A stretch of DNA of 39,582 bases, from positions 1 to 39,582 of the IMG/VR virus record IMGVR_UViG_3300009176_000022, one strand, 5' to 3'. The notes below the pieces were generated by a model, which was given only the letters and a program-made list of their open reading frames with translations, was not told the DNA's origin and did not search any database. The position numbers and the translations under genes are program-made. Source of the stretch: a virus. This document shows positions 1,179-38,707 of this stretch, piece by piece; the stretch's first letter is position 1, and each line of letters starts with the position of its first letter.

Positions 1179-1492
1179 AATGGTCCGACGTGCCGATGTC
1201 ACGAGTAGCCGACGTCCCGATCACGAGTGGCGAGCACCGCGTCCGCCGGGGCGCGGCCATCAGCTCGTTCGCCGAGCGCGTCCGTGGCCGACGGCTCGAG
1301 CTCGGGCTGACCAGGACCAGGCTCGCTCAGGCGGCGGGCATTATCGCCGAGACCGTCGCCAACATCGAGGAGGGCCGCCACGAGCCGCGAGCCTACACGT
1401 TCGCGGCGATCGCAGCCGCGCTCGAGACGACGATGGACGCGCTCTGGCACGGCGCGGGTGAAAACTCGGCGCAAACGGTTGAGAGCGGGTGA
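1175..1492 (+). CDS. XRE-family HTH DNA-binding protein
   Basis: A 105-residue protein with a Cro/C1-type helix-turn-helix at about residues 30-85: 'RVRGRRLELGLTRTRLAQAAGI', then 'ETVANIEEGRHEPRAYTFAAIAAAL', the usual Q-A-A-G and 'N-I-E-G' signature positions. There is no protease or dimerisation domain after the HTH. It overlaps the upstream stop (ATGA) and lies directly before the ParB-like gene and the modification operon, so it may control that operon or act as an early-to-late regulator. That role is inferred from position only. Confidence 0.8.
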   Translation: MKWSDVPMSRVADVPITSGEHRVRRGAAISSFAERVRGRRLELGLTRTRLAQAAGIIAETVANIEEGRHEPRAYTFAAIAAALETTMDALWHGAGENSAQTVESG

Positions 1493-1496
1493 TAAC

Positions 1497-2036
1497 ATGG
1501 CAAGCGAGATGAGTAGCCCGGCGCCCTGGCGTAACCGGATCACGCGACACGCGGACGTGCCGCCGTCGGATCTCGTCGCGCACCCGCTCAACGCGCGACG
1601 GCACGGCCGCATGCAAGCCGACGCGCTCTCAGGCGTGCTCTCCGAGGTCGGCGTCGTCCAATCGGTGATCGTCAACGAGCGGACCGGACGGATGCTCGAC
1701 GGACACCTGAGAGCCGAGCTCGCGGTCGCTCGCGCGGAGCCGACGGTCCCGGTCGTCTACGTCGATCTTGACGAGTCGGAAGAACGGCTGATCTTAGCGA
1801 CGTTCGACCCGCTCGGCGCGCTCGCGGATACGGACGGCGCCGCGCTCCGCGAGCTGCTCGGCGTCGTGACGACGCACGATGACGCCGTCCGTCGCGTCGT
1901 GCAGTTTATCGCGGAGCAGCACATGCCGACGCCGGAGCCGGAGCCGCCGACCGAGTTTCCGTCGTTCGACGACGATCTTGAGACCGCGTACCGCTGCCCG
2001 TCGTGCGCGTACGAGTGGAGCGGCGAGCCTAAATGA
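1497..2036 (+). CDS. ParB-like N-terminal domain protein
   Basis: The ATG at 1497 gives 179 residues. Residues about 20-105 match a ParB/Srx-type N-terminal domain: 'DLVAHPLNARRHG' followed by 'VLSEVGVVQSVIVNERTGRMLDGHLRAELA', where 'GRMLDGHLR' is the usual nucleotide-contacting box. In many phages this domain is fused to a DNA methylase; here it stands alone directly before a cytosine methyltransferase. The C-terminus carries a CxxC pair ('CPSCAYEW') that could bind zinc. Its stop overlaps the next ATG by 4 bases. A DNA-binding or nuclease role in modification or regulation is an inference. Confidence 0.75.
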   Translation: MASEMSSPAPWRNRITRHADVPPSDLVAHPLNARRHGRMQADALSGVLSEVGVVQSVIVNERTGRMLDGHLRAELAVARAEPTVPVVYVDLDESEERLILATFDPLGALADTDGAALRELLGVVTTHDDAVRRVVQFIAEQHMPTPEPEPPTEFPSFDDDLETAYRCPSCAYEWSGEPK

Positions 2037-3604
2037 GCGCGTCTCGGCTCCTGGTAGAGCGCCGCTTTCTGGATGTTCACGCGGCCGGGGCGAGAGCACA
2101 TGATCTCGTCGACGTGACAGATCGCCCGATGGGCTCGATCCGCGCCGGCGGCGGCGGGAGCGCGCATGCGTCCTGGACATTCGGACGGGCTGGGATCCGG
2201 AGCGAGACTATGTCTACCGACATAGCTACCGTCGAGAAGCCGCCGTATCGGATTCCGAGCATGGCGGAGATCGCTGCCGTCGAGCCGAGCGGCTACGCGG
2301 TCGTCTCGACGTTCTCCGGCTGCGGCGGCGCCTGTCTCGGGTTTCGCATGGCCGGCTACCGCGTGCTCTGGGCGTCCGAGTTTATCGACGCGGCCGCCGA
2401 GAGCTACGCCGCGAACGCGCCGGCGACGCCGCTCGACCGTCGCGATATCCGAGCCGTTCGCGGCTCCGAGATCCTCGACGCGATCGGCCGCGAGCGCGGC
2501 GACGTCGACGTACTCGAAGGCTCGCCGCCGTGCGCGTCGTTCTCGACGGCCGGGAAGCGGAATGCTCACTGGGGCGCTATCAAGCCGTACTCGGATACGA
2601 AGCAGCGCGTCGACGATCTGTTCTTCGAGTACGCGCGGCTCGTCGACGAGCTTCGTCCGAGAGTGTTCGTCGCGGAGAACGTCTCCGGGCTCGTCAAGGG
2701 CGTCGCGAAAGGGTATTTCAAACGGATTCTCGCCGCGCTCCGAGCGCCGGGCTACGTCGTCGCGGCGCGGCTACTCGACGCGCAATGGCTCGGCGTCCCG
2801 CAGGCGAGACAGCGGATTATCTTCGTCGGCGTCCGCGAGGACCTCGTCGAGCGGTACGGCGTCGGTCCGTCGTTCCCGTCGCCGCTCCAGTACCGCTACT
2901 CCGTCCGCGACGCGCTCCCGGAGATCGCCGGGATTGACGGACGGACGGGTCCGCGCGAAGCGCGGACCCCGAGCGAGATCGACGCTCCGATGAATGCCGT
3001 GCTCGTCTCCGACCCGGCGCAGACGCGGTACGAGGTCATGCCCCGCGCCTATCTCGATAGGCGCGGGGCATTCGGGAACGACGGCGACTGTACCGAGACG
3101 CCGGCGCCGACCGTCCTGGCGGATTCCGTCGGAACGCACTGGATCACTGCGCTTCGTCCGAAGCGCAGTGATCGTTCGCTCGACGCGCCGTGCCCGACGG
3201 TCCTGACGCACGGACGCGCGCATACGACATCGGAGCTCACGCTCGCCGTCGAGCCGGAGGCCGACCTGGCGTCGTACGCGATCGGCCGCGAGTGGGACCG
3301 ACTCGGGCCGGGCGAGCAGAGCGAACGCTATTTTCAGCTCATGCGCGCCGAGCCGTCCGCACCGTCTCCGACCGTGACGCAGCGCGGAGGTGACGCCGGC
3401 GTCGCGAGCGTAACGCACCCTACGGAGCGGCGGAAATTCTCGATCGCCGAGCTTCGACGGATCTGCGGGTTCCCGGACGACTTCGTCCTGACGGGGACGT
3501 ATGCGCAGCAGTGGGAGCGGCTCGGCCGCGCCGTCCCACCGCCGATGTACGCGGCCGTCGCCGCGACGATCCGCGACGAGATCCTCCGGAGGTGCTCGAC
3601 GTGA
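2033..3604 (+). CDS. C5-cytosine DNA methyltransferase with motif X Asn-to-Arg change
   Basis: A 523-residue protein with C5-MTase motifs in order: motif I 'FSGCGGACLGF', motif II 'WASEFIDAAA', motif IV 'GSPPCASFSTAG' with catalytic Cys167, motif VI 'VAENVSG', motif VIII 'QARQRIIFVG', and motifs IX-X at the C-terminus. Motif X normally reads G-N-(S/A)-V; here it is 'RLGRAVPPP', so Asn becomes Arg499 (codon 3527-3529). Between VIII and IX the target-recognition region has repeated 'P-x-P-T-V' modules (near residues 362, 391 and 443) and three perfect DNA palindromes. The start at 2033 overlaps the ParB stop. ATG 2210, preceded by GGAGCGAG, is a good alternative because the first 59 residues are not MTase-like. 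It overlaps the CmoA-like gene by 4 bases, so the two are probably translated together. Confidence 0.93.
   Translation: MSASRLLVERRFLDVHAAGARAHDLVDVTDRPMGSIRAGGGGSAHASWTFGRAGIRSETMSTDIATVEKPPYRIPSMAEIAAVEPSGYAVVSTFSGCGGACLGFRMAGYRVLWASEFIDAAAESYAANAPATPLDRRDIRAVRGSEILDAIGRERGDVDVLEGSPPCASFSTAGKRNAHWGAIKPYSDTKQRVDDLFFEYARLVDELRPRVFVAENVSGLVKGVAKGYFKRILAALRAPGYVVAARLLDAQWLGVPQARQRIIFVGVREDLVERYGVGPSFPSPLQYRYSVRDALPEIAGIDGRTGPREARTPSEIDAPMNAVLVSDPAQTRYEVMPRAYLDRRGAFGNDGDCTETPAPTVLADSVGTHWITALRPKRSDRSLDAPCPTVLTHGRAHTTSELTLAVEPEADLASYAIGREWDRLGPGEQSERYFQLMRAEPSAPSPTVTQRGGDAGVASVTHPTERRKFSIAELRRICGFPDDFVLTGTYAQQWERLGRAVPPPMYAAVAATIRDEILRRCST
2947..2969. repeat. Perfect inverted repeat 1 inside C5-MTase gene
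   Basis: Two perfect 10-bp arms (2947-2956 and 2960-2969) flank the three-base loop GAA. The core GCGAAGC is a sequence known to form an unusually stable DNA mini-hairpin. It is in frame within the target-recognition region and encodes part of 'GRTGPREARTP'. Confidence 0.95.
3038..3071. repeat. Perfect inverted repeat 2 inside C5-MTase gene
   Basis: Two perfect 16-bp arms (3038-3053 and 3056-3071) flank a two-base loop TC. It is in frame and encodes about 'MPRAYLDRRGAFG', just before a 'TPAPTVL' module. Its centre is about 97 bp from the centre of the first palindrome. Confidence 0.95.
3142..3173. repeat. Perfect inverted repeat 3 inside C5-MTase gene
   Basis: Two perfect 15-bp arms (3142-3156 and 3159-3173) flank a two-base loop TC. 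The outer ends are GATC. It is in frame and encodes about 'ITALRPKRSDR', just before the 'APCPTVL' module. Its centre is about 103 bp from the second palindrome. Confidence 0.95.
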
Positions 3605-4323
3605 CGTCCGTACCGCGCGATACCGGCTACGCGCCGGACCGCTGGGCCTTCGACGACGAGGTCGCTCGCGTCTTCGACGACATGCTCCGGCGCTCGATTC
3701 CGCAGCTTGACGTCATGCGCTCGCTCGTAACCGATCTCGCGGCGGCGTTCGCGCGGCCGAATACGACGATCGTCGATCTCGGCTGCTCGCGCGGCGAGTC
3801 GCTCGCGCCGCTCGTCGCGCGGTTCGGCGAGCGGAATAGCTACGTAGGAATCGAGATCTCGCCGCCGATGCTCGACGCCTGCCGCGAGCGACTCGCCGGC
3901 GAGATCGCGGCCGGCTCGGTCTTGATCGAGCCGCACGATCTCCGCGACGGGCTCCCGGACGTCCGCGCGTCGGTCGTGCTCTCGGTCCTGACGCTGATGT
4001 TCGTCCCGATCAACTACCGGCAGAGGATCGCGCGAGACGTCTTCGACGCGCTCATACCGGGCGGCGCGCTGATCCTCGTCGAGAAACTGCTCGGGCACGG
4101 CGCGACCGTCGAGCGCGTCATGGTCGACCGCTACCACAGGTTCAAGGCGGAGAACGGGTATACGGCCGACGAGATCGAGCGGAAGCGGCTTGCGCTCGAA
4201 GGCGTCCAGGTCCCCATGACGGCCGGCTGGAACGAGGACCTGCTCCGCTCGGCCGGCTTCCGCGAGAGCGATTGTTTCTGGCGCTGGCATAACTTCGGCG
4301 CCTGGGTCGCCGTCAAGGGGTAA
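3601..4323 (+). CDS. CmoA-like carboxy-S-adenosylmethionine synthase homologue
   Basis: A 240-residue Rossmann SAM enzyme that lines up with E. coli CmoA along its length. Shared blocks are 'W-x-FDDEVARVFDDMLRRSIP' (15-34), the SAM loop 'VDLGCSRG' (58-65), 'GIEISPPMLDACR' (83-95), 'PGGALILVEK' (153-162), 'FKAENGYTADEI' (181-192), 'RKRLALEGV' (194-202) and the end 'HNFGAWVAVKG'. CmoA makes Cx-SAM from SAM and prephenate; the Arg that holds the carboxylate in E. coli (Arg199) corresponds to Arg196 here. The GTG start at 3601 overlaps the MTase stop (GTGA). No CmoB-like tRNA enzyme is in the window, so the obvious consumer of Cx-SAM is the upstream cytosine MTase. A plain SAM methyltransferase role cannot be excluded. 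Confidence 0.85.
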   Translation: MTSVPRDTGYAPDRWAFDDEVARVFDDMLRRSIPQLDVMRSLVTDLAAAFARPNTTIVDLGCSRGESLAPLVARFGERNSYVGIEISPPMLDACRERLAGEIAAGSVLIEPHDLRDGLPDVRASVVLSVLTLMFVPINYRQRIARDVFDALIPGGALILVEKLLGHGATVERVMVDRYHRFKAENGYTADEIERKRLALEGVQVPMTAGWNEDLLRSAGFRESDCFWRWHNFGAWVAVKG

Positions 4324-8077: not shown

Positions 8078-8305
8078 ATGGCGATCGTCGAGACACACGA
8101 GGCGCACACGCACGCGGTCAGGCGCGACCTGGCGGCGTTGCTCGTCGGCGCGGCGGCGGTGATCGTCGCGCTCGCGTTCCTGGTCTGGGTGCTCTGGCAG
8201 GTCGGCGCATCGGTCAAAGCGACGAGCTTCGACGCCGATGGCGTCCGCTGCTACAAGGGCGCATCCGAGATGGCGTGTCTCAAGACGGCCGAGCCGCCGC
8301 GATGA
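8078..8305 (+). CDS. Small single-span membrane protein
   Basis: A 75-residue protein from ATG 8078 with good upstream GGAGGGG. Residues about 20-43 form one strongly hydrophobic span ('LLVGAAAVIVALAFLVWVLW'), preceded by a His-rich polar N-terminus and followed by a domain with two Cys ('GVRCYKGASEMACLK'). The C-terminal half would lie on one side of the membrane and could form a disulfide. It overlaps the next glycosyltransferase start. Function unknown: possibly a membrane anchor or accessory for the glycosyltransferases, or a lysis-related protein. Confidence 0.7.
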   Translation: MAIVETHEAHTHAVRRDLAALLVGAAAVIVALAFLVWVLWQVGASVKATSFDADGVRCYKGASEMACLKTAEPPR

Positions 8306-8925
8306 GTCGCCCGCTGGTCTCGATTTTGACGCCGACCTGGGAACGGTCGGAGCTGCTCGCGGGCGCGATCGAGAACGTCAGAGCGCAGACCTATCGGCCC
8401 GTAGAACATGTGATCGTCTCGGACGGGCAGGGCGACCGCGCGACGTACGAGCTCGTCATGGCGGCGCTCTCGAGCGTGAGCGACGTGCCGATCCGCTACG
8501 TCGCGCTCGGGCGCAACTGGTCAAGCTTTCTAGTCGACTCGTTCTGCGCGGCGCCGACGACGGCCGCGATGCTGCTGGCGCAGGGGGAGTACCAGGCGTG
8601 GCTCGCGGACGACGAGCGCATGGACCCGGAGCACATCGAGCTTCTCGTCGCCCTGCTCGAGGCTAGAGGCGCCGACTTCGCGTACTCGCGGGTCCGTATG
8701 TGGATGAAGGGCACCGAGGGCTCGTCGTGGGTGATCGGCACCGATCCGCCGCGCTGCGGCCAGATTACGAACGTCGTCTACCGCGCCGAGGTCCTCCGGC
8801 ATGGCCTGTTCGCCTTCGGCGCCGGCGGCATCGGCGACTGGGCGACGATCAACCGCTGGATCAACGCCGGCGCGACCTGGGCATACCTTGACCGCGTGAC
8901 GCTCACGCACCGAGCGGATAGGTAG
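8302..8925 (+). CDS. Family 2 glycosyltransferase
   Basis: A 207-residue GT-A fold enzyme. The N-terminal signature is 'PLVSILTPTWERSELLAGAIENVRAQTYRPVEHVIVSDGQGD' (residues 4-45), and 'AWLADDERMDPEHIE' near 96-110 supplies the metal/nucleotide-binding acidic motif. The C-terminal part ('GGIGDWATINRWINAGATWAYLDRVTLTHR') closes the acceptor region. It is short but complete for a phage GT2. It starts in an ATGA overlap with the membrane gene and is followed by a Zn-finger gene and a second glycosyltransferase. In some actinobacterial phages glycosyltransferases decorate capsid or tail proteins; the target here is unknown. Confidence 0.88.
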   Translation: MSRPLVSILTPTWERSELLAGAIENVRAQTYRPVEHVIVSDGQGDRATYELVMAALSSVSDVPIRYVALGRNWSSFLVDSFCAAPTTAAMLLAQGEYQAWLADDERMDPEHIELLVALLEARGADFAYSRVRMWMKGTEGSSWVIGTDPPRCGQITNVVYRAEVLRHGLFAFGAGGIGDWATINRWINAGATWAYLDRVTLTHRADR

Positions 8926-8934
8926 GAGGTCATC

Positions 8935-9105
8935 ATGACGACCGAACCGAACCGAGAGACCGAGACGGCCGACGCGCCGGCCGACGAGCAGCGGCGCTGC
9001 GGGTGCGGGCGGGAGCTCCGCCAGCCGGGCGCGGGCTCGGAGACGCTCACCTGTATCGGCTGCGACCAGCCAGAAGCGGCGTGCGCGTGCGGCCCGAACG
9101 ACTGA
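8935..9105 (+). CDS. Small Cys-rich (zinc-binding) protein
   Basis: A 56-residue frame from ATG 8935 with an excellent ribosome site (TAGGAGGT, 5 bases before ATCATG). The first 20 residues are acidic and Pro/Thr/Glu-rich; the rest has cysteine pairs 'RRCGCGREL', 'TCIGCDQ' and 'ACACG' that look like a small zinc ribbon. It overlaps the start of the next glycosyltransferase by 25 bases in another frame. No function can be assigned. Confidence 0.65.
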   Translation: MTTEPNRETETADAPADEQRRCGCGRELRQPGAGSETLTCIGCDQPEAACACGPND

Positions 9106-10214
9106 CCGGGCCGAACCTGCTCGCGCTCGTCGGCGATCGGAACGGGCCCGCGCTCTGGAGAGTACTTCAGCCGTTCACGGCGCTCGAGCGTCGCGGCTAC
9201 GCTTGCGGCTGGGACTCGATCGGCAATCCGGCATTGACGGATGCGTTCGCGGCGCGGTTCGACGGGCTGATTATCGCTCGGATGTCCTGGCCGCCGGCGT
9301 TCCGCGACCGCGCTCGAAGATGGTTCGACTTAGCTAGAGCGCGGCGGCAGCTCGTCGTGTTCGAGACCGACGACGACATCCTGACAACCGCCATGACGCG
9401 GCACGCGCTCGGCTCCGGGCTCGGACACGGCAAGACCCTGCACCAGCTCGAGGAGGAGCGGCACGATACGCTCTGGGCTATGCGGCAGTGTGACGGTGTG
9501 ACGGTCTCGACCGAGACGTTAGCGGCGCGCGTCCGCGCGTACACGGATAGGCCCGTGATCGTCGTCCCCAATGCGATCGACGTGCCGTGGTTCCGGAGCG
9601 TCGTACGACGCGCTCAGACGCGCTCAGCGCACTCTCCGCCAGCCGCGCACGTCACGATCGGCTGGGTCGGCGGCCAGCGCGACGAGGCCGACCTTGACGC
9701 GGTCGCCGACGCCTGGCGGCGGATCGCTCAACGCTACCCGAGCGTCCGCTTCGTCGTCGCCGGGCACCGCTCGGCCAGGCTGACCTCTGCCGTCCCGGCC
9801 GAGCGGCTGACGTTCCGTCCGTGGGTGCCGATCGAGCGCTACCCCGAGAGCTTCGCCGGGATCGATATCGGCATAGCGGCGGTCGCGCCGTCGCTGTTCA
9901 ACGCGGCAAAGAGCGAGATCAAGGCGTACGAGTATGCCGTCGGCGGCTCTGCCGTCATAGCGTCGCCGTGCCTGTACGGCGAGATCGTCGAGCATGGAAA
10001 GACGGGCTATCTCGCGGAGACGGCCGACGAGTGGACGGACGCGCTCGTCGACCTGCTGGAGCGGCCGGCGCATCGCGCGATCTTCGCTCGGCGGCTGCTC
10101 CGCGTCGTCGAGCGTGAGCATGCCCTGAGCGACAACCTGTACCGCTGGCCTGAGGCGTGGCGCTCGATCGCCGCGAGCGCGGGGGTGACCTATGGCCGCG
10201 TCGTCATGGCGTGA
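9081..10214 (+). CDS. GT4-type (family 1) glycosyltransferase
   Basis: About 377 residues from GTG 9081 (GTG 9087 is also possible; the longer frame from 9003 lies inside the Zn-finger gene). It has the GT-B C-terminal half: 'VIVVPNAIDVPWF', 'IGWVGGQRDEADL', 'RFVVAGHR', 'VPIERYPESFAGIDIGIAAV', and the nucleotide-sugar site 'KSEIKAYEYAVGGSAVIAS' followed by 'YGEIVEHGKTGYLAE'. It resembles glycosyl_transf_1 proteins. With the GT2 gene just upstream it forms a two-step glycosylation pair placed next to portal/head genes. Substrates are unknown; virion protein, surface glycan or modified DNA are all possible. Confidence 0.88.
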   Translation: MRVRPERLTGPNLLALVGDRNGPALWRVLQPFTALERRGYACGWDSIGNPALTDAFAARFDGLIIARMSWPPAFRDRARRWFDLARARRQLVVFETDDDILTTAMTRHALGSGLGHGKTLHQLEEERHDTLWAMRQCDGVTVSTETLAARVRAYTDRPVIVVPNAIDVPWFRSVVRRAQTRSAHSPPAAHVTIGWVGGQRDEADLDAVADAWRRIAQRYPSVRFVVAGHRSARLTSAVPAERLTFRPWVPIERYPESFAGIDIGIAAVAPSLFNAAKSEIKAYEYAVGGSAVIASPCLYGEIVEHGKTGYLAETADEWTDALVDLLERPAHRAIFARRLLRVVEREHALSDNLYRWPEAWRSIAASAGVTYGRVVMA

Positions 10215-11788: not shown

Positions 11789-12346
11789 GTGCAGCGGTAC
11801 GGAACGATCGTGGCCGATCCGCCGTGGGAGTACGCGGAGGGCTGGCCCGGCTGGGGCACGCGGCGCCCGCTACCCTACGCAGCGATGACACTGGACGAGA
11901 TCATGGCCTTGCCGGTCGGGGACTGGGCCGCGCGTGAGGGCTATCTGTTCCTCTGGACAACGAATCGCTACCTGGAAGCCGCCTTCCGGGTCGCCCGCGC
12001 CTGGACGTTCACGCCGCGCCAGGTTCTGACGTGGTGCAAGCCGCCGATGGGGAAGGGGCCGGGCGGCATGTTCGCCACGACGACCGAATTCGTCCTCGTG
12101 GCTCAGCGCATCAACCCAGGCACGAACGCGCACGGCCCACGGACGCGCGGGGAGCGCATCCCAACCTCGTGGTTCCAGTGGTCCCGAGGCCGACACTCGC
12201 AGAAGCCGGCCGCGTTCCTGGACATGGTCGAGGCAGTGAGCCCAGGCCCATACCTGGAGCTGTTCGCCCGACCGCCTCATCGCCTCGGATGGGATGTCTG
12301 GGGTGCGGAGTCGGCCAATACCATCGACCTGACGCGACCGGCCTGA
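11789..12346 (+). CDS. MT-A70-family adenine N6 methyltransferase
   Basis: A 185-residue enzyme starting at GTG 11789 after GGAGGAGCT. The catalytic motif 'ADPPWEY' is at residues 9-15. 'AAMTLDEIMALPV', 'GYLFLWTTNRYLEAAFRVARAW', 'QVLTWCKP', 'TTEFVLVAQR', 'HSQKPAAFLDMVEAVSPGPYLELFAR' and 'GWDVWG' are all in the order expected for MT-A70. Length fits stand-alone phage members. It should transfer methyl from SAM to N6 of adenine in DNA and could protect phage DNA. No cognate restriction enzyme is adjacent. Confidence 0.93.
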   Translation: MQRYGTIVADPPWEYAEGWPGWGTRRPLPYAAMTLDEIMALPVGDWAAREGYLFLWTTNRYLEAAFRVARAWTFTPRQVLTWCKPPMGKGPGGMFATTTEFVLVAQRINPGTNAHGPRTRGERIPTSWFQWSRGRHSQKPAAFLDMVEAVSPGPYLELFARPPHRLGWDVWGAESANTIDLTRPA

Positions 12347-36827: not shown

Positions 36828-37235
36828 ATGACCGATCGACCACGCGAGCACAGCAGGCATATCAAGGTCCGCGATGTCTCCTGGGAAGAAATCGTCTTTC
36901 CCGACGACCGGAAGTACCTGGAGATCGTATGCAAAGACTATCTCCCGCACTGGGACATCCGACCCCTAGAGCACTGGTGTGAGTGCGGCTCACATCTGGC
37001 GTTCCTCCGCGCTGAAGCCTGGATGAACCAGCCGGAGCGGTGCTGCTGCGGTGGGTGCCGGGTGCCGGTGCTGGTGGTGATCGGCACTTGCGGCGGCTGG
37101 GCGATCAGTGATGATCCGGACTGGGACCCATGTCCATATATCGGCGAGGAGGTCGCCTGCTCCTGGGAGGGCGATGACACGGACGAGGGCGCTCGCGTGC
37201 GGCTGTTTTTCGAGCCGGTGCCGGTGGAGGCGTGA
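36828..37235 (+). CDS. Hypothetical Cys-rich protein
   Basis: A 135-residue protein from ATG 36828 (GTG 36822 is an alternative). The N-terminal part contains 'HIKVRDVSWEEIVFPDDRKYLEIVCKDYLPHWDI'. The middle has Cys motifs 'HWCECGSH', 'RCCCGGCRVPV' and 'GTCGGWAI', probably a zinc site. It lies between the DnaD-like gene and the ParB-methylase, overlapping neither strongly. No family recognised. Confidence 0.65.
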   Translation: MTDRPREHSRHIKVRDVSWEEIVFPDDRKYLEIVCKDYLPHWDIRPLEHWCECGSHLAFLRAEAWMNQPERCCCGGCRVPVLVVIGTCGGWAISDDPDWDPCPYIGEEVACSWEGDDTDEGARVRLFFEPVPVEA

Positions 37236-37237
37236 GG

Positions 37238-38707
37238 ATGAAAGCTCATCCTGCCGCCGATCTGTTCCCGATGCTCGACGACGCTCGATTGACGGAGCTC
37301 GCCGAGGACATCAAGGCGCGCGGGCTACTCGATCCGATCGTGCTGCACGACGGCATGATCCTCGACGGGCGCAACCGCGACGGTGCGTGCGAGAAAGCCG
37401 GCGTCGCACCGCGCTACGTCGAGTGGGATGGCAAGGGCGGCTCGCCGGTCCTGTTCGTCCTCTCGCGCAACCTCCAGCGCCGTGATCTGACGCCGTCGCA
37501 GCGCGCGGTGATCGGCGCCGCTGGGCTGGAGATGGACGAGGCCGAGGGCCGCGCGCGCAAGGCCGAAGCCGGGCGCAGCGCGGCTCCTGGAAAGCCTGCT
37601 GACCAGGAGAAACATGTGGCCCCGGGGCCACATGTTTCTCCTGGTCACGAGTCAGCGTCATCCGCGTCGCAGTCGTCGCCGGGGGAGAAGAAACGAGGTC
37701 CGCTGTCGCGTGACAAGGCAGCGGCGAAAGTGGGCGCGAGCGGTCGTCAGGTGGCTCGCGCGAAGCGTGTCAAGCAGGCCGACGCGACGCTGTTCGAGGC
37801 CGTCCGCCTCGGCGAGCGGACGCTGAAGTCGGCCGAGCACGAGGTCCGTCAGCGCGAGAAGCAGGAGCAGGCGGAGCGGCGGATCGCGGAGACGCCGCGC
37901 GTGGACGTGCGCCTGCTCGCCGGCGACGCGACGGCGCTGCCGCTCGCGGCTGGCTCCGTGGACGTCATCCTCACGTCGCCTCCGTACGGGTTGGACAAGC
38001 CCTACCTCGGCCAGACGGACCTCGCGGTCGGCTGGGAGACGTTCATGACGGATTGGCTCCGCGAGGCGTACCGCGTGGCTCGCGCGCCCGGTCGGCTGAT
38101 CCTGAACGTCCCGATGGATACCGCGAAGGGCTACCGCCCGACCTGGCCGCAGGCATGCGCGGCAGCGCAGTCGGCCGGCTGGACCTATCGCTCGATCATC
38201 CTCTGGGACAAGATGAACTCGACGAAGGGCAATCGCGGGCTCGGGTCTGAGAACTCGGCCGATGCGCCGTATCCGGTCGTCGAGGTCGAGGCCGTCGGCC
38301 TGTTCTCGAAAGGCGACTGGAAGCTCGGCGACGACCGTCCGTCGGATATCAAGCCCGACGAGTGGCAGGCGTGGGGCAATGGGCTCTGGCAGCTTCCGGG
38401 CGAGTCTCGCGGCTGGGAGGGCCACCCGGCACCGTTCCCTGAGGCGCTCGTACGGCGCCTGCTGATCTACCTGACGCGCGTCGGGGATACCGTGCTCGAC
38501 CCGTTCTCTGGTAGCGGCACGACGGCGCTTGTCGCGCGCCGCCTGAAGCGCGAGCCCATCGGCGTCGATCGCAGTCTGGAGTACGTCGCGTCCGCAGTGC
38601 GGCGGATCGCGGCCGACGACGACCGGAGGTCATGTGAGGGCGTTACCCAAGAGCGCGCTGGTGCTGACCTACCTGCAAGTCCATCTCGGCAAGACCGTGG
38701 CGAATGA
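37238..38707 (+). CDS. ParB-domain DNA adenine/cytosine-N4 methyltransferase
   Basis: A 489-residue protein from ATG 37238 (GGAGG seven bases before). Residues about 1-90 are a ParB N-terminal domain ('LAEDIKARGLLDPIVLHDGMILDGRNRDGACEKAG', 'VLSRNLQRRDLTPSQRA'). A linker of about residues 100-165 contains the 48-bp palindrome and an HTH-like region ('KAAAKVGASGRQVARAKRV'). Residues about 225-470 are a beta-type N4/N6 methyltransferase with 'VDVILTSPPYGLDK' (motif IV) and 'DPFSGSGTTALVARRL' (motif I at the C-terminal end). It methylates DNA and may act as a DNA-binding regulator. Confidence 0.92.
   Translation: MKAHPAADLFPMLDDARLTELAEDIKARGLLDPIVLHDGMILDGRNRDGACEKAGVAPRYVEWDGKGGSPVLFVLSRNLQRRDLTPSQRAVIGAAGLEMDEAEGRARKAEAGRSAAPGKPADQEKHVAPGPHVSPGHESASSASQSSPGEKKRGPLSRDKAAAKVGASGRQVARAKRVKQADATLFEAVRLGERTLKSAEHEVRQREKQEQAERRIAETPRVDVRLLAGDATALPLAAGSVDVILTSPPYGLDKPYLGQTDLAVGWETFMTDWLREAYRVARAPGRLILNVPMDTAKGYRPTWPQACAAAQSAGWTYRSIILWDKMNSTKGNRGLGSENSADAPYPVVEVEAVGLFSKGDWKLGDDRPSDIKPDEWQAWGNGLWQLPGESRGWEGHPAPFPEALVRRLLIYLTRVGDTVLDPFSGSGTTALVARRLKREPIGVDRSLEYVASAVRRIAADDDRRSCEGVTQERAGADLPASPSRQDRGE
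37600..37647. repeat. Perfect 48-bp palindrome inside the ParB-methylase gene
   Basis: A perfect inverted repeat with two 24-bp arms (37600-37623 and 37624-37647) and no spacer, centred on GGCCCC|GGGGCC. It is in frame and encodes about 'DQEKHVAPGPHVSPGH' in the linker between ParB and methylase domains. In single-stranded form it would make a strong hairpin. Confidence 0.97.

Follow-up and report, generated by a model that had tools for sequence, protein, structure and literature searches.

A predicted CmoX-CmoA DNA carboxymethylation cassette in a temperate, probably actinobacterial phage

We describe a 39.6-kb tailed-phage record with 69% GC (IMG/VR record IMGVR_UViG_3300009176_000022; the whole stretch analysed is hereafter called the window), in which two overlapping plus-strand genes, cmoX and cmoA, very probably form a DNA carboxymethylation cassette of a temperate and probably actinobacterial phage. 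Their predicted products are a DNA cytosine C5-carboxymethyltransferase (CmoX; 2210..3604) and a carboxy-S-adenosylmethionine (Cx-SAM) synthase (CmoA; 3601..4323). The activity, product and protective effect that we propose for this pair would follow from what is known of its homologues.

The overlapping cmoX and cmoA genes

The cmoX frame is open from ATG 2033 to 3604 on the plus strand (523 aa), and it was placed among the C5-methyltransferases (MTases) by Pfam (PF00145, E = 3e-52) and under dcm by NCBIfam. A preliminary description of this DNA had numbered the protein from 2033, but the start is more likely ATG 2210, giving a protein of 464 aa, because we saw no homologue covering the first 59 residues of the 523-aa open reading frame (ORF) and because the closest relative (L014) has an open frame for only 11 codons ahead of the aligned region. 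In the numbering of the 523-aa form, which we use here except where stated, this C5-MTase fold contains an SPPC motif with the catalytic Cys167 (codon 2531-2533), followed by Ala168 (2531..2536 for the two residues; motif IV GSPPCA, where ordinary enzymes have PPCQ). Motif X reads ERLGRAVPP, and its Arg499 codon lies at 3527..3529, exactly as first described.

The cmoA gene begins with a GTG at 3601 that overlaps the cmoX stop codon (3602-3604) in the sequence GTGA, as had been noted before, and a GGAGG ribosome-binding site (3588..3592) lies within the end of cmoX, 8 nt before this GTG. Its product was matched by phrog_4752 (E = 2e-73), by TIGR00740 and by E. coli CmoA (4GEK), the last over residues 14-239/240 (E = 3e-36), which bears out the end-to-end homology claimed earlier. 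On TIGR00740 it scored 162 bits, below the equivalog cut-off of 193 bits, which is a database naming threshold and not a biochemical feature; since the proven CmoA of Synechococcus phage S-B43 scored lower still (116 bits), this cut-off leaves out real phage CmoAs. As the preliminary description stated, the counterpart of E. coli Arg199, which is reported to salt-bridge the carboxylate (PMC3663124), is Arg196 (4186-4188) in the window protein. We rejected it as proof of function, since the active S-B43 enzyme carries Glu there, as do 83/152 of the phage CmoAs examined.

The chemistry proposed for the window was demonstrated in S-B43 by Yang et al. (Nat Commun, 7 Dec 2025; PMC12783734), who described CmoX, CmoA and CmoY and showed by liquid chromatography-mass spectrometry, crystallography and a cmoA knockout that CmoX writes 5-carboxymethylcytosine (5cxmC) with CmoA-made Cx-SAM, the only cofactor that it accepts. 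In the 1.9 Å structure of CmoX with Cx-SAM (8YF3), Arg350, the equivalent of M.HhaI Asn304, touches the carboxymethyl group (PMC12783734). This structure was the top match of the window MTase in the PDB both by sequence (E = 4e-64, the next being DNMT1 at 7e-26) and by fold, when an AlphaFold2 model was used as the query (E = 5e-29, TM-score 0.83 normalised to 8YF3). Aligned with 8YF3 and five isolate phage homologues, Arg499 corresponds to SpCmoX Arg350, and the window MTase preserves the SpCmoX residues F25/E47/F48/D69, S95-C98 and R350, among them every Cx-SAM contact named by Yang et al., as F94, E116, F117, D138, S164-C167 and R499.

By analogy with these proteins, CmoA would convert S-adenosylmethionine (SAM) and prephenate to carboxy-SAM, and CmoX would flip out the target cytosine, attack its C6 with Cys167 and pass the carboxymethyl group to C5. 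From 8YF3 we infer that Arg499 would form a salt bridge with the cofactor carboxylate, for which Ala168, in place of the ordinary Gln, probably makes room. The product would be 5cxmC at the CmoX recognition site, and this mark would probably shield the phage DNA from restriction. The earlier reading, in which the phage CmoA makes Cx-SAM and an MTase with Arg in motif X carboxymethylates cytosine, thus draws support from the S-B43 homologues and from family membership. Its implied novelty did not hold, since the system has already been published, along with what the Arg does and how it parallels M.MpeI N374K (PMC12783734). The window pair is clearly a further example of the CmoX-CmoA system demonstrated in 2025 and not a first discovery.

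That the cassette has decayed or is inactive in this phage seems very improbable. A sister phage (L007) with window-type packaging and glycosyltransferase genes is missing cmoX and most of cmoA but not the packaging genes next to them, and the cassette may therefore be dispensable in this lineage; both window frames, however, are open and overlapping, with intact catalytic and ligand residues and a good ribosome-binding site. In L007 (5416-6001), ParB runs straight into a cmoA remnant that lacks the 5′ two thirds or so of the gene, which reflects either a genuine deletion or a faulty assembly.

Motif X, motif IV and the presence of CmoA

CmoX-family loci were fetched with MTase queries only, disregarding CmoA, and duplicates were removed; ordinary phage C5-MTases served as controls. 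CmoA was present in the fetched DNA of 123/127 loci with Arg in motif X and missing from 4/127, as against 0/21 loci with Asn. A search of whole viral records, covering the four Arg exceptions and 11 Asn-form loci, found no CmoA anywhere, the 62-kb contig of one of these Arg forms (L191) included; host CmoA can suffice for CmoX (PMC12783734). None of the roughly 50 control C5-MTases had a CmoA or a readable motif X Arg. Their motif X carried Asn where it was readable, bar one Asp, and most of those that our script left unparsed were GNA or GNS by eye. The preliminary description had named, as the observation that would count against it, an Arg commonly found at this position without a CmoA neighbour, and we observed the reverse. 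From this, we concluded that, in the sample examined, an Arg in motif X is a specific feature of C5-MTases travelling with CmoA.

The association gave a Fisher p of 8e-22, a value that we do not take at face value, since the counts are not independent: the full tree requires no more than three changes of motif X, and a reduced, outgroup-rooted tree, in which the outgroup branch is long, requires two. CmoX-CmoA cassettes are also carried by phages of Streptomyces, Pseudomonas, Moraxella and Synechococcus.

A column-by-column comparison revealed that the residue after the catalytic Cys separates Arg from Asn forms as cleanly as motif X does. We found PPC[A/S] in 147/149 Arg forms, the two exceptions being Lys in PaBG and Val in L005, and PPCQ in 20/21 Asn forms as well as in 48/51 of the MTases that fall outside the CmoX family. 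The window residues Ala168 and Arg499 correspond to M.HhaI Q82 and N304, the pair mutated in mTAG work to widen the cofactor pocket (PMC10666283). The main text of PMC12783734 makes no mention of this motif IV position.

These patterns bear on whether the window MTase could be an ordinary, SAM-using 5-methylcytosine MTase, with CmoA serving tRNA or some other purpose. Generic models do name it dcm, and CmoA occurs without CmoX in Alcaligenes phage Afa-NA1, Aeromonas phage HJ05 and MT835562, which have no C5-MTase. We nevertheless consider this explanation highly unlikely: SpCmoX takes Cx-SAM only and its R350N mutant uses neither cofactor (PMC12783734), Arg and PPC[A/S] track CmoA almost perfectly while close Asn/Gln relatives lack it, and the window contains no CmoB (family PF08003), in agreement with what had been reported from the first reading.

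The CmoA homologues of Afa-NA1 (L010, 5986-6738), HJ05 (L392, 2645-3382) and MT835562 (L393, 6001-6678) lie in genomes in which we found neither CmoB nor any C5-MTase at all; the Afa-NA1 gene has a D12-class adenine MTase about 2.5 kb downstream of it. N6-carboxymethyladenine and tRNA are both possible destinations of their Cx-SAM. In a Staphylococcus SPbeta-like phage (L391, 6007-7706), the gene immediately after CmoA encodes a C5-MTase that does not belong to the CmoX family. Its PCQ is canonical and its motif X degenerate (VGGVIN versus GNAVPP), and Cx-SAM use possibly arose separately here.

Within the CmoX family, L044, L060, L206, L214, L219, L220, L236 and others have Asn in motif X and, in all but one case, Gln after the Cys; they have kept ParB and lack CmoA. 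The main Asn group (19 rows, 97% support in the SH-like approximate likelihood ratio test, SH-aLRT) is nested among Arg forms in the rooted tree, which suggests that it went back to methylation and lost CmoA. These relatives are thus probable natural revertants, although the direction of change, from Arg to Asn, is a suggestion only, the outgroup being distant. The paired change in motifs IV and X, together with the nested Asn/Gln relatives, offers a testable account of how an MTase switches its cofactor.

Ligases and the end product

In S-B43, CmoY ligates glycine (PMC12783734), and the question arises whether 5cxmC is the final base in the window phage. It could instead be an intermediate, to whose carboxylate an unrecognised enzyme, encoded in the window or outside it, would ligate an amine or other group as CmoY does with glycine. 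CmoY-type ligases have been reported in many CmoX contigs (PMC12783734), TurkishDelight, PaBG and S-B43 carry a ligase beside CmoX/CmoA, and the window itself holds two glycosyltransferases, of GT2 (8275-8925) and GT group 1 (9003-10214), inserted between the portal and prohead protease genes. A search of the 39.6-kb record for a CmoY-type ligase (asparagine-synthetase-like, PF00733), however, returned none, and PF00733 proteins were equally missing from the complete genomes deposited for Mcat8 and S-CRM01, with S-B43, TurkishDelight and PaBG positive as controls. Such a protein was likewise absent from 18/24 searched whole viral records with a CmoX-CmoA cassette, and 86/145 Arg/CmoA loci had no ligase nearby. 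The only gene families conserved beside ligase-less cassettes were ParB, terminase and portal. As for the window glycosyltransferases, they recur among the fetched loci only in L007, which has no cmoX, and we have rejected them for now as decorators of 5cxmC. On balance, we regard further modification of the carboxylate as rather unlikely.

When present, the ligase usually keeps CmoX and CmoA apart, whether by lying between them or otherwise, while in ligase-less cassettes the two are mostly directly adjacent, as they are in the window. Since no CmoY-type ligase turned up, modification in this phage likely stops at the free acid, with free 5cxmC plausibly its final base. More broadly, we tentatively propose, as a possibility that we do not yet favour, that the ligase-less branch ends at free, negatively charged 5cxmC, and that a coupled switch (Gln to Ala/Ser in motif IV, Asn to Arg in motif X) has also been reversed in nature to give Gln/Asn enzymes without CmoA, which presumably methylate. 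The coupling of motifs IV and X, the nested Asn/Gln relatives and the ligase-less branch are modest additions to the main text of PMC12783734. An unmasked 5cxmC end product would most obviously be sought in phages that have no ligase, the isolates Mcat8 and S-CRM01 among them.

Certain points weigh against our interpretation of the window as a CmoX-CmoA cassette that yields free 5cxmC. Its MTase is only 39% identical to SpCmoX in the alignment, and its target-recognition region is long and poorly modelled, most of residues 241-343 in the 464-aa numbering having a predicted local distance difference test score (pLDDT) under 50. The association between Arg and CmoA reflects just about two or three independent switches. 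A ligase could also lie beyond the 39.6-kb record, which may be incomplete. The family of the window pair, its residues, its overlap and its co-occurrence are evident at the sequence level.

Phage context and comparison with known systems

Besides the cassette, the window encodes a terminase, portal, protease, capsid, tape measure, GH25 lysin and large serine recombinase, and by the last of these genes the phage is predicted to be temperate. Its terminase is closest among isolates to that of Streptomyces phage mu1/6 (49%), and this match, together with that of CmoX to TurkishDelight, points to a probable actinobacterial host; we found no phage isolates related to the window at the DNA level. 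A search of the window for tRNA genes found none. Two further predicted DNA MTases, of the MT-A70 (11789-12346) and N6/N4 (37232-38707) classes, suggest that the phage may carry several base modifications.

Upstream of cmoX lies a gene for a ParB-like (ParBc) protein (1458..2036, plus strand; PHROGs 498/620, E about 1e-14). A ParB ORF was found at most 300 nt upstream of the MTase in 98/114 Arg-form and 14/16 Asn-form loci, and ParB thus travels with the MTase and not with Cx-SAM chemistry. ParBc neighbours of CmoX were noted by Yang et al., whose candidate sequences comprise 5,615 CmoX, 4,257 CmoA, 2,251 ligase and 1,660 ParBc (PMC12783734).

Many prophage copies of ParB-CmoX-CmoA were observed in metagenome-assembled genomes (MAGs) of Verrucomicrobiota (L365-L382, L386, L389, L390), one of which, FR_27, has at least seven, two of them decayed. 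We rejected a cellular system as an explanation for these chromosomal copies, since those examined lie in prophages that also encode a terminase, a portal and a DNA polymerase. In one such prophage (L369), the 17-mer TTGAAGCGTAACGTTCC or a near copy is repeated around 6902, 11950, 14849 and 16694, and is possibly a regulatory or operator site.

To the DNA modification shown in 2025, the window contributes a ligase-less cassette whose gene order is unusual and whose phage host is probably actinobacterial. It shares with the CmoX-CmoA-CmoY system of S-B43 the same enzyme pair, the motif X Arg, the Cx-SAM contacts and a same-strand operon, but its gene order is ParB-CmoX-CmoA, in contrast to CmoA-CmoY-CmoX in S-B43, and no CmoY was found in the window. 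The window CmoX also has a long insertion in the target-recognition region that S-B43 CmoX lacks, and the window CmoA keeps the E. coli-type Arg199, whereas that of S-B43 does not. Among sequenced isolates, the closest CmoX is that of Streptomyces phage TurkishDelight (51% identical by tblastn), whose genes 122-125 have the same ParB-CmoX order but, unlike the window, place a glutamine-dependent, asparagine-synthetase-like ligase between CmoX and CmoA. Moraxella phage Mcat8 resembles the window in having ParB-CmoX-CmoA followed by terminase, with no PF00733 ligase in its deposited genome, but it is a different phage of a different host, with a more divergent CmoA. Finally, engineered M.MpeI N374K (for Cx-SAM) and M.HhaI Q82A/N304A (for synthetic cofactors) are changed at the same cofactor-pocket positions as the window enzyme to take larger or charged cofactors; these are laboratory mutants, whereas the window enzyme is natural, with both positions changed together.

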